NCBI GenBank assembly: GCA_937120535.1
Contig: CAKZJX010000136.1
Location: 1-64,000 of the forward strand
DNA from: an uncultured Anaerolineae bacterium
Lineage (GTDB): Bacteria > Chloroflexota > Anaerolineae > Anaerolineales > Villigracilaceae
Reading direction: 5' to 3'
DNA length: 64,000 bases
The notes below the pieces were generated by a model, which saw only the letters and a program-made list of their open reading frames with translations, was not told the DNA's origin and made no database searches. Below, in pieces: positions 46,391 through 49,791 of this stretch. Within the stretch, counting starts at the first letter, position 1, and each line of letters starts with the position of its first letter. Position numbers and translations under genes: made by a program.

Positions 46391-47542
46391 ATGAACGAAC
46401 GCGTAGCGATTGTGGGGGTTGGCTGGGCAGGATTTCGGCCAAAGACTCCCGATCTGTCGTACAAAGAAATGATCTATCAAGCTGCTGTGCGCGCCTATCA
46501 CGATGCCAAGGTGGACCCGCGCACAGACGTGGACTCGTTCGTCACGGTGGCCGAGGACTTTCACGAAGGCACCAGCATTGCCGATGAGTATACGCCTGAC
46601 CAGTTGGGTGCAGTGATGAAGCCAATGCAGACCATCACTGGCGATGGTTTACATGGCTTGGCAACGGCGGTAATGCTTGTCCGGACCGGCCTGTGTCGGA
46701 TTGTAGTGGTGGAGGGGCATAGCAAAGCATCCAATATTCTTACCCTCGACTCGATCACGGCCTACGCTCAGGACCCGGTGCTCAACCGCCCGTTGCGCTT
46801 GAACACGCACATGGTGGCCGGCCTAGAGATGAATCGCTATCTCCACGAGAGCGGAACCGATGAAGAAGCCTGTGCTGCTGTGGTGGTCAAGAACCGCCGC
46901 AATGCACTGCGCAACCCGTTAACCTCCTTCGGCGCCGATCTCACCCTCGACGAGGTGTTGGCCGGCCCGCCCCTAGCGTGGCCCTTGGGAGTGCACCAAA
47001 CCGCTCGACCCGTTGACGGCGCCGTGGTCATGGTGTTGGCAAATGAACAGGTGGCGCGTTCCCTCACTGATCGCCCGATCTGGATCGCCGGCATCGGCTG
47101 GTGTAACGACACCCCCTCGCTCGAGTCGCGCTCGTGGGCCACGTTGCCCTACCTCGAACAGGCAGCGCATATGGCCTACCGCCAAGCCGGAATCCGCACA
47201 CCCTTCGAAGAAATTGACTTTGCCGAAATCGACGATACGTATGCCTACAAGGAACTTCAATCCATAGAAGCGCTCGGCCTGTGTGGGTTTGGTGAGGCCG
47301 GCGCTTTGCTTAAGGAAGGTGTGTTCGACCTCGATGGTGCCTTTCCAGTCAACGCTTCGGGAGGCAGCTTGGGGGCCGGCCATCTTTTGGACGCCACTGG
47401 TCTGCATCGGGCGTTGGAAGCCGTCCTACAGTTGCGCGGCGAGGCAGGAGCGCATCAATTGGAAGACGTACAAGTCGCTCTGGTGCAGTCCTGGCGTGGT
47501 GTGCCTACCACCAGTGGTGCTGTAGCTGTGTTGACCAACTAG
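46391..47542 (+). CDS. Thiolase-fold (SCP-x type) protein, putative non-canonical
   Basis: SCP-x-like C-terminus DDTYAYKELQSIEALGLCGFGEAGALLKEG...VNASGGSLGAGHLLDATG; nucleophile region reads TITGDGLHGLATA (no Cys). Confidence 0.82.
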   Translation: MNERVAIVGVGWAGFRPKTPDLSYKEMIYQAAVRAYHDAKVDPRTDVDSFVTVAEDFHEGTSIADEYTPDQLGAVMKPMQTITGDGLHGLATAVMLVRTGLCRIVVVEGHSKASNILTLDSITAYAQDPVLNRPLRLNTHMVAGLEMNRYLHESGTDEEACAAVVVKNRRNALRNPLTSFGADLTLDEVLAGPPLAWPLGVHQTARPVDGAVVMVLANEQVARSLTDRPIWIAGIGWCNDTPSLESRSWATLPYLEQAAHMAYRQAGIRTPFEEIDFAEIDDTYAYKELQSIEALGLCGFGEAGALLKEGVFDLDGAFPVNASGGSLGAGHLLDATGLHRALEAVLQLRGEAGAHQLEDVQVALVQSWRGVPTTSGAVAVLTN

Positions 47543-47562
47543 GAGCCCAGAAGGAGAAGCCT

Positions 47563-48723
47563 ATGCGCAAAGTTGCTGTCATCGGCGCGGGGATGACCAA
47601 ATTCGTCCGTCGTGCCTTGGAAACCCCCAAAGAACTGGCCTGGGAAGCGGCCAAAATGGCGTTGGAGTCCTGTGAACTGACCATGAAGGACATAGATGCC
47701 GTCTGTTTCGGTACAGCGCCAGATGCATTTGACGGCGTCCATATGAATGGGGAATACGTCAGCGATGGCGCTGGCGCCTGGCGCAAACCGTTCATGCGAG
47801 CCTTCGTTGGCGGCGGCACAGGCGTGTTTAGCTCCATTCAAGGATGGTACCACGTAGCCTCGGGAATGTTCGATGTGGTGTTGGTCGTGGCCGAAGAAAA
47901 GATGTCCTCGTTCTATCCCCATGCCCAGGCAGCCTTCCTGACGATCTTCGATAACTTCACCGAGCGCCCTCTCAAGCCCAATCTGCTGTGGATCTTTGCT
48001 CTTGAAATGAATCGTTACATGACAACGTATGGGCTGAAGAAAGAAGACATCGCTCGGGTAGCGGTCCAACACAAGCGCAATGCCGCCGATCATCCGTGTG
48101 CTATGCTGGGTGAACCGAACATCACCGTGGAAGACGTATTGAATTCCGAGGTGTTGGCTTGGCCGGTACAGCGCCTGGATGTCTCGCCGATTTCAGACGG
48201 AGCGGTGGCGATCGTCATGGCGGCTGAACATGTGGCCAAGCGTTTGACTGACAAGCCGGTCTGGATCGAGGGCGTGGGTTGGAACTTGGATACGGCCTAT
48301 TGGACCAACCGCGACCTGGTCTACCCACGTTACGTGGAATATGCTGCCCGTATGGCCTACGAGATGGCCGGCATCAAAGAGCCGCGCAAAGAGATCCACA
48401 TCGCTGAACCCTATGACCCCTTTGATTACAAAGTGCTCCATCATCTAGAAGGCCTCCAACTGGCCGATCGCGGCAAGGCTATCGAGCTCTATTTGGATGG
48501 GACGGCCGCCCGCGATGGAAACTTGCCGGTATGTCCCTCGGGAGGACTGCTGGGCGTGGGCAACCCGATTGCCGCTGCAGGATTGATGAAGATTGCCGAG
48601 TTGTTCTGGCAATTGCGCGGGGAGGCCGGCGCCCGCCAAGTGCCTGGCAATCCTCGCCGTGGGGTGGCGCAAGCCTGGGGCGACCTGATGCAGATCGGCA
48701 CCGTAGTTGTCATGGGACGTTAA
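47563..48723 (+). CDS. Thiolase-fold (SCP-x type) protein, putative non-canonical
   Basis: MRKVAVIGAGMTKFVRR, VCPSGGLLGVGNPIAAAG; nucleophile region reads FVGGGTGVFSSIQG (no Cys). Confidence 0.82.
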   Translation: MRKVAVIGAGMTKFVRRALETPKELAWEAAKMALESCELTMKDIDAVCFGTAPDAFDGVHMNGEYVSDGAGAWRKPFMRAFVGGGTGVFSSIQGWYHVASGMFDVVLVVAEEKMSSFYPHAQAAFLTIFDNFTERPLKPNLLWIFALEMNRYMTTYGLKKEDIARVAVQHKRNAADHPCAMLGEPNITVEDVLNSEVLAWPVQRLDVSPISDGAVAIVMAAEHVAKRLTDKPVWIEGVGWNLDTAYWTNRDLVYPRYVEYAARMAYEMAGIKEPRKEIHIAEPYDPFDYKVLHHLEGLQLADRGKAIELYLDGTAARDGNLPVCPSGGLLGVGNPIAAAGLMKIAELFWQLRGEAGARQVPGNPRRGVAQAWGDLMQIGTVVVMGR

Positions 48724-48744
48724 ACTCACGCACGGAGGACCACG

Positions 48745-49278
48745 ATGACCAGCCGTTTCAAATCTTTTCCCGGTACTTCCCTGAGCGAAGAGGATTTTGC
48801 CCAGGGCGAGGTGTTGTTTGTGCACGATGCGCTGAAAGCCGAATATGCACGGGATACCGGCGTCGGAATCGGCGCCTACCTGGCCGGCCTGCGGCGCGGC
48901 GTTATCCTCGGTTCGTATTGCTCCCACTGTCGCAAGACGGTCGTGCCGCCGCGGGTGGTGTGTGAATGGTGTTTCCGCCCGATGAGCGAATACGTCCCGC
49001 TCCGAGATACTGGTGTAGTCAACACCTTCTCGTTGTGTTATGTCACCTGGGATGTTCAACGCATCTCCCAGCCCGAGATCCCGGCCGTGATCGTGCTCGA
49101 TGGCGCTTCCACGCTGAGCGAAACGTCGGTGGTGATGGGCGGCATTCTCCACAAACTCAGCGAAGTGGACCCCAAGGCCGTGCGCATCGGCATGCGCGTC
49201 CGCGCCGTTTGGAAACCCCCTGAAGAGCGCCAAGGCGCCATCACCGACATCCTGTATTTCAAGCCCATCGAAGAATGA
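48745..49278 (+). CDS. Zn-ribbon/OB-fold (DUF35) protein
   Basis: GSYCSHCRKTVVPPRVVCEWCFRPM zinc ribbon followed by OB-like domain. Confidence 0.88.
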   Translation: MTSRFKSFPGTSLSEEDFAQGEVLFVHDALKAEYARDTGVGIGAYLAGLRRGVILGSYCSHCRKTVVPPRVVCEWCFRPMSEYVPLRDTGVVNTFSLCYVTWDVQRISQPEIPAVIVLDGASTLSETSVVMGGILHKLSEVDPKAVRIGMRVRAVWKPPEERQGAITDILYFKPIEE

Positions 49279-49308
49279 CATGGCGTTGCACCCTTTTCCC
49301 ATTCACCT

Positions 49309-49791
49309 GTGACCGATAAGGAGCGATTTATGTCTCTACTCCAACCTGATCCCCAAGCTCCCTCTGTCTGGCGTGATAATCTACCGGTCACCAGCCGCTA
49401 CACCTACGGGCTGGCCGGCGAACGCTTCTTCCGTATCCTGAAAGACGAAGGCAAGATCATAGGTTCCATCTGCGCCGCCTGTGGCGCCACCTATGTTCCA
49501 GCGCGGGCCTTCTGCGAACGCTGCATGGCCGAATTGACCGAGTGGACGGATGTGGGCCTCGTGGGCGAACTGCATACCTTCACCGTCTTATTCGTAGATA
49601 TGGAAGGCCGCCCGCTGGACGAGCCGGAGCTGGTGGGCTTTGTCCGCTTTGGCGATGGAGGCATCTTACACAAGCTGGACGCTGATCCGGACGATCTCCA
49701 GATCGGCATGAAGATGGAAGCGGTGCTCAAGCCTAAAGCCGAGCGTATCGGCGCCATCACCGACATCCTTGGCTTCCGTCCGGTGACCTAG
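49309..49791 (+). CDS. Zn-ribbon/OB-fold (DUF35) protein
   Basis: GSICAACGATYVPARAFCERCMAEL zinc ribbon followed by OB-like domain. Confidence 0.88.
   Translation: MTDKERFMSLLQPDPQAPSVWRDNLPVTSRYTYGLAGERFFRILKDEGKIIGSICAACGATYVPARAFCERCMAELTEWTDVGLVGELHTFTVLFVDMEGRPLDEPELVGFVRFGDGGILHKLDADPDDLQIGMKMEAVLKPKAERIGAITDILGFRPVT

Follow-up and report, generated by a model that had tools for sequence, protein, structure and literature searches.

What could be the function of an operon that encodes two thiolase-fold proteins, both lacking the nucleophilic cysteine of thiolases? The question is raised by four co-directional open reading frames (ORFs) at 46391-49791 on the + strand of contig CAKZJX010000136.1, from an uncultured Anaerolineae bacterium of the family Villigracilaceae. 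The window analysed here is the whole stretch of 64,000 nucleotides of this contig, and the four genes lie in it in the order thiolase-fold, thiolase-fold, DUF35, DUF35. Here, we show that the second thiolase-fold protein carries, at the positions of the catalytic residues of thiolases, a different set of residues that is invariant in bacteria and archaea. As the most likely reading, although with somewhat less than even confidence, we propose that the operon encodes one heteromeric thiolase-fold/DUF35 enzyme, in which protein 2 would be catalytic and would act as an aldolase similar to Ltp2 and Sal.

The operon and its protein families

The four genes of the operon are:
Protein 1 (P0001, 383 residues), 46391..47542, + strand: thiolase-fold, PRK06066-like 'A-type' subunit with Thr83, D281-D-T-Y and His331
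Protein 2 (P0002, 386 residues), 47563..48723, + strand: thiolase-fold, PRK06065 'B-type' subunit with G83-G84, Y284-D285-P286-F287 and N334; proposed catalytic subunit
Protein 3 (P0003, 177 residues), 48745..49278, + strand: DUF35, with a zinc ribbon CSHC...CEWC plus OB fold; proposed scaffold/coenzyme A (CoA)-site subunit
Protein 4 (P0004), 49330..49791, + strand: DUF35, with CAAC...CERC; orthologue of SSO2064/3IRB; start moved from GTG 49309 to ATG 49330

The ORFs were called at 46391-47542, 47563-48723, 48745-49278 and 49309-49791, with 20-51 nucleotides between neighbouring genes and a purine-rich sequence resembling a ribosome site 5' of each. The start of gene 4 is probably ATG 49330 rather than GTG 49309, since AAGGAG lies just 5' of it and many orthologues are ~154-159 residues long. 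In agreement with the four-gene operon described by the first-pass annotation, the products of genes 1 and 2 match the Pfam domain Thiolase_C_1, and those of genes 3 and 4 match zf-ChsH2 with OB_ChsH2_C, the DUF35 pair. The DUF35 matches score over the cut-off and cover the zinc ribbon (CxxC...CxxC) and the OB domain, and the Cys pairs are kept in 56 of 57 loci for each of the two genes.

Among the NCBIfam models, protein 2 matches NF004721 (PRK06065) with 642 bits against a cut-off of 455, and protein 1 matches NF004722 (PRK06066) with 491 bits, just below the cut-off of 516. Both models also match Sulfolobus acidocaldarius. They describe unnamed families of 'thiolase domain-containing protein' to which no function is attached, and protein 2 is a member of the first. 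Our literature search found no paper on the function of PRK06065 or PRK06066; a paper on the Sulfolobus fadR cluster mentions thiolases but does not name the operon genes. What is new compared with these families is the conserved pairing with two DUF35 genes and the replacement of the active site.

Active-site residues of the two thiolase-fold proteins

Residue equivalences were taken from alignments to solved thiolases and from one joint alignment, and the geometry rests on alignment and secondary structure. In the alignments to solved thiolases, the position of the nucleophilic Cys is occupied by Thr83 in protein 1 and by Gly84 in protein 2. The counterpart of the HDxF motif is D281-D-T-Y in protein 1 and Y284-D-P-F in protein 2, and that of the GHP motif is GHL (H331) and GNP (N334), respectively. 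The motifs TITGDGLHG, VGGGTGVFSS, GHLLDATG and GNPIAAAG, from which the first-pass annotation had read the absence of Cys by eye, occur exactly as quoted. The fold is that of beta-ketothiolases, canonical or SCP2-type, but neither family retains their set of a Cys at the N-terminal elbow, the His of HDxF and the His of GHP, which fits the earlier suggestion that the proteins are not beta-ketothiolases. It is likely that they cannot use normal thiolase chemistry.

The two proteins differ in how these positions have evolved. In protein 2, Gly84, Tyr284-Asp-Pro-Phe and Asn334 are invariant in all 72 bacterial orthologues and in 52 of 52 sequences of an alignment of bacteria and archaea, where the Gly83-Gly84 elbow is also strictly kept (52/52). 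Since this active site is both different and strictly conserved, the chemistry of protein 2 is probably unlike that of ordinary thiolases. In protein 1, the nucleophile column varies among T, P, S, G and A, with Cys in 6 of 78 bacterial orthologues, and H331 is kept in 24 of the 56 sequences of the bacterial and archaeal alignment. Thus, no thiolase residue is consistently kept among the protein 1 sequences compared, while E108, H110, K112 and K167 are invariant and D281 is nearly so. Across bacteria and archaea, neither family has a conserved Cys column, the best columns reaching 39/56 and 27/52, and a relocated Cys nucleophile is therefore ruled out at the family level; Cys324 of protein 2, one such candidate, was rejected at 27/52. 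The loss of Cys is not a matter of chance or decay, as orthologues from many phyla show the same motifs within the same gene set.

Predicted structures and phylogeny

AlphaFold models of proteins 1 and 2 as single chains are both confident, with predicted local distance difference test (pLDDT) values of 88 and 92, and place the nucleophile elbow (G83-G85) between a strand and a helix. Foldseek recovers a thiolase fold for both, with 7YVY as the best match of each, template modelling (TM) scores of ~0.85-0.91 to 7YVY/6ESQ/6ET9, and matches to 6OK1 and 9MYR as well.

The motif columns were removed before the trees were computed, and classical thiolases served as outgroup. The protein-1 type and the protein-2 type each form a clade with support of 100/100, and together with two more distant 'doubled' operon types of the same bacterial family (L168-L172; L numbers denote loci) they form one clade (100/98), which is separate from the clade of Ltp2 and Sal (99/99). 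A common clade of all doubled proteins with Ltp2/Sal was not rejected (p=0.50). The distant doubled paralogues share the pattern of protein 2, with Tyr, GG at the elbow and Asn.

The distant doubled operons (L168, L169-L170, L171-L172) come from other genomes of the window's family and adjoin genes recognised by eye as those for BKACE (DUF849), CoA-transferase, acyl-CoA ligase and aldehyde:ferredoxin oxidoreductase, together with genes of beta-oxidation. A thiolase-like protein at L172:7367-8725 has a half-degenerate active site, with GGGATGG at the nucleophile elbow and HDAY and GHP intact.

Comparison with known systems

In Ltp2 and Sal, the Tyr of YDHF/YDCY is the base that takes the proton of the beta-hydroxyl, and a second residue protonates the enolate (PMC12329534). 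Both the Tyr base and the Gly at the nucleophile position are found in protein 2 (Y284, G84) and are missing from protein 1. With the steroid aldolase Ltp2-ChsH2 (6OK1), the operon shares the combination of thiolase fold and DUF35, the lack of a nucleophilic Cys, the Gly-Gly elbow, the Tyr of YDxF, and an acyl-CoA dehydrogenase in the pathway. It differs in belonging to a separate clade, in having two thiolase-fold types instead of one, in Asn334 of protein 2 standing at Tyr344 of Ltp2, and in that the DUF35 partner of the steroid system is fused to MaoC. The bile-acid side-chain aldolase Sal-Shy (9MYR) shows the same likeness, as its Tyr302 aligns with Tyr284 of protein 2 and the nucleophile is again replaced by Gly, but its Cys304 and Gln352 correspond to Pro286 and Asn334, and it also lies in the separate clade. 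Protein 2 shares the Tyr and the Gly-Gly elbow with Ltp2, to which the first-pass annotation had drawn attention, but neither protein is an orthologue of Ltp2 or Sal.

Benzoylsuccinyl-CoA thiolase BbsAB (7PXP) was also cited there as a pairing of DUF35 with a thiolase. It has the thiolase and DUF35 components in common with the operon, but in the joint alignment BbsB retains Cys, HDAF and GHP, so the Cys-less proteins described here, although accompanied by DUF35, are not of the BbsAB type. PhlABC and 6ESQ resemble the operon in having two thiolase-superfamily subunits joined by DUF35, but in these complexes the thiolase-like subunit has Cys and is paired with a KASIII/HMGCS-like one, whereas both operon proteins are thiolase-like and Cys-less and there are two DUF35 genes. 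IpfDE, a retro-aldolase of ibuprofen-CoA, releases propionyl-CoA into the methylmalonyl-CoA pathway (PMC9195938); by its description it is also a thiolase-type CoA lyase, but its substrate is a dihydrodiol made by an oxygenase. Taken together, the operon belongs with the Cys-less thiolase/DUF35 systems, of which it is a widespread but unstudied variant, and is neither a steroid aldolase nor a categorically new system.

Distribution of the operon

From the 355 candidate loci of a genome scan with protein 1, we retained 80. These are mostly from Chloroflexota, the other record titles being Armatimonadetes, Acidobacteria, Deltaproteobacteria, Planctomycetota, WOR-3, Hydrothermus and Bathyarchaeota. 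Protein 2 and the two DUF35 genes follow 3' of protein 1 on the same strand in 57 of 78 loci, many of the others ending at a contig edge, and the four-gene set recurs across the ~100 bacterial and archaeal loci examined. The operon is present in 9 of 400 genomes of the window's phylum, 5 of 199 in the phylum of L105, 7 of 241 in that of L109, and 39 of 250 in that of the Bathyarchaeota locus L100, which on the GTDB scheme would include the Sulfolobales.

The fourth operon protein of the archaeal locus L145 is 81% identical to SSO2064, so that a structure of one subunit (3IRB) has been available since 2010 (PMC2954200). SSO2064, the DUF35 counterpart of protein 4 in the Saccharolobus version of the operon, was solved alone and without an assigned activity. 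SSO2061, annotated as an acetyl-CoA acetyltransferase and detected in a study of Sulfolobus infection (PMC3518317), would from its gene number be the orthologue of protein 1 or protein 2.

Gene neighbourhood

Two further genes of the window lie 5' of the operon:
P0005, 42996..43865, + strand: CLYBL-like (HpcH/HpaI) CoA-ester C-C lyase, with two genes between it and the operon
P0006, 43948..44763, + strand: short-chain dehydrogenase/reductase (SDR); possible pathway member, weak link

The closest match of P0005 in the PDB is human CLYBL (5VXC, 237 bits), and in several Anaerolineales an HpcH/HpaI lyase directly adjoins the operon. Bacterial loci have as neighbours an acyl-CoA dehydrogenase, a two-subunit CoA-transferase or, as in the window, a CLYBL-like lyase. 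Of 20 archaeal loci, most have an acyl-CoA dehydrogenase and/or an acyl-CoA ligase resembling acetate/propionate ligases next to the operon or at most three genes away. Methylmalonyl-CoA mutase stands beside the operon in L061 (Armatimonadota), in L111 (Bathyarchaeota, with MeaB) and in L186 and L187 (phylum of L109), and at ~3 kb or less in two more genomes of the last phylum; a fragment at the contig end of L095 resembles it by eye. L061 also has genes for 2-oxoacid dehydrogenase E1beta and E2 and for a 3-hydroxyacyl-CoA dehydrogenase. Among the 250 genomes of the Bathyarchaeota/Sulfolobales phylum, mutase is found in 28 of 39 with the operon and in 55 of 211 others (Fisher p=8e-8, not corrected for phylogeny and overstating independence, because the genomes are related). 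An acetoacetate-CoA ligase gene directly adjoins the operon in L106 and lies close to it in L187, and SCOT-like CoA-transferase genes lie upstream in L095. These neighbours point to catabolism of short or branched acyl-CoAs, with propionyl-CoA as the best-supported product.

In many Anaerolineales (L039, L046, L048, L050, L054, L056-L059, L088, L089, L098, L101), a conserved block fabD-fabG-asp23-nusB-tatA-tatC, assigned by eye, lies 5' of the operon. A role in fatty-acid synthesis, considered from fabD and fabG, was rejected, as generic genes intervene and loci elsewhere lack the link. A canonical thiolase of Bathyarchaeota, with Cys, HDCF and GHP and accompanied by a DUF35 gene of its own, is oriented divergently from the Cys-less operon (L111:1012-2587, L113:8254-9844). 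The window's genome has a second Cys-less, DUF35-partnered thiolase on contig C130 (L195:3090-7935), where HMG-CoA (3-hydroxy-3-methylglutaryl-CoA) reductase, HMG-CoA synthase, a thiolase-fold protein and DUF35 were recognised by eye; in the thiolase-fold subunit, Phe stands at the His of GHP and the nucleophilic Cys is replaced by Glu (EAAEASGG).

Discussion

The first-pass annotation had left open whether the operon encodes two C-C lyases or a hetero-complex. We favour the hetero-complex, since the two thiolase-fold genes have been inherited together with both DUF35 genes in lineages from Sulfolobales to Chloroflexota. Only protein 2 is a plausible C-C lyase; two lyases are unlikely, because protein 1 has Asp at the position of the Tyr and variable residues elsewhere. 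Two independent homomeric enzymes are likewise less likely, given the co-inheritance and the lack of a conserved catalytic set in protein 1.

We argue that protein 2 could work without an acyl-enzyme Cys, in the manner of Ltp2 and Sal. Tyr284, at the position of the His of HDxF, would act as base on a beta-hydroxyacyl-CoA, while the thioester oxygen would be held by Asn334, at the position of the GHP His, and by backbone amides at Gly84 and Gly373. Cleavage of the Calpha-Cbeta bond would yield an acyl-CoA, for which propionyl-CoA is the best guess, and an aldehyde or ketone; the reaction may also run in the aldol direction. The conserved His60 and His120 of protein 2 are candidate proton donors. 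Protein 1 would be a degenerate partner, or pseudo-subunit, probably taking the place of the second subunit of a thiolase dimer, and the two DUF35 proteins could scaffold the pair and shape the CoA pocket, their number matching two non-equivalent thiolase subunits. That the substrate is a short 2-methyl-3-hydroxyacyl-CoA, for example from isoleucine, cleaved to propionyl-CoA and an aldehyde, is a narrower proposal that we regard as unlikely in this exact form.

Several observations weigh against an Ltp2/Sal-like aldolase. The second acid/base (Tyr344 in Ltp2, Cys304 in Sal) is not kept, with Asn334 and Pro286 in protein 2 instead. In sequence comparisons, protein 2 scores higher against thiolases (7yvy, 198 bits) than against Sal (122) or Ltp2 (99), and its membership of the Ltp2/Sal clade was rejected by the tree and by the approximately unbiased (AU) test (B-type + Ltp2/Sal clade, p=0.002). 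Most bacterial loci have no mutase neighbour, no hydratase gene is regularly adjacent to the operon, and the 3-hydroxyacyl-CoA dehydrogenase of L061 suits a beta-keto substrate.

The remodelled site could instead catalyse another acyl-CoA reaction, such as hydration or dehydration, decarboxylation, or acyl transfer not via Cys. This has a low probability. In its favour, the combination of Asn334 and Pro286 is unmatched among the characterised relatives examined and the neighbouring genes vary by lineage; against it, those functional analogues that come closest in having a Gly-Gly elbow and Tyr-Asp-x-Phe are aldolases. A non-catalytic role of both thiolase-fold proteins, as scaffolds or CoA-channel subunits for neighbouring enzymes, is quite unlikely. 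It would resemble that of PhlA in PhlABC, a Cys-less thiolase-superfamily partner needed for the complex (PMC6392133), and would agree with the substituted thiolase subunit in the mevalonate-type cluster of the same genome; however, the strict invariance of the substitute residues of protein 2 across bacteria and archaea points to catalysis, and no single catalytic partner gene is constant. More doubtful again is a Cys-independent thiolase or Claisen enzyme, in which Tyr284 would serve as base for a direct attack of the CoA thiolate on the beta-keto group; 2-methylacetoacetyl-CoA from the breakdown of isoleucine would be one example of a substrate. The nearest sequences and folds are those of thiolases, and the dehydrogenase upstream in L061 and the SDR gene in the window would suit it, but every thiolase residue of protein 2 is replaced by a different invariant one, the characterised thiolases covered by the literature consulted work via a catalytic Cys, and the window's genome encodes another thiolase with Cys, HDAF and GHP (can_L001). 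Least probable is a special case of the aldolase, a substitute for HMG-CoA lyase that would split HMG-CoA into acetoacetate and acetyl-CoA in leucine breakdown: the acetoacetate-activating genes at L106, L187 and L095 and the presence of canonical HMG-CoA lyase in only 2 of 32 operon genomes, not including the window's own, speak for it, but the supporting loci are few, no carboxylase genes were recognised near the operon, the mutase links favour propionyl-CoA, and the L095 genome has the canonical lyase too.

In Sulfolobales, Bathyarchaeota, Chloroflexota and other groups, the operon proteins bear the annotation thiolase or acetyl-CoA acetyltransferase. Because normal thiolase chemistry does not appear possible for them, predicted pathways in which they are taken for thiolases are probably in error. 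The invariant residues of protein 2 offer a direct mutational test of the proposed aldolase, in which the solved subunit structure is an aid. If the aldolase is confirmed, Cys-less thiolase/DUF35 aldolases would reach past steroid and aromatic catabolism into the metabolism of small acyl-CoAs, and cleavage of a 2-methyl-3-hydroxyacyl-CoA, if it occurs, would add an undescribed retro-aldol branch to the breakdown of branched-chain amino acids, by which dehydrogenation and thiolysis are bypassed.

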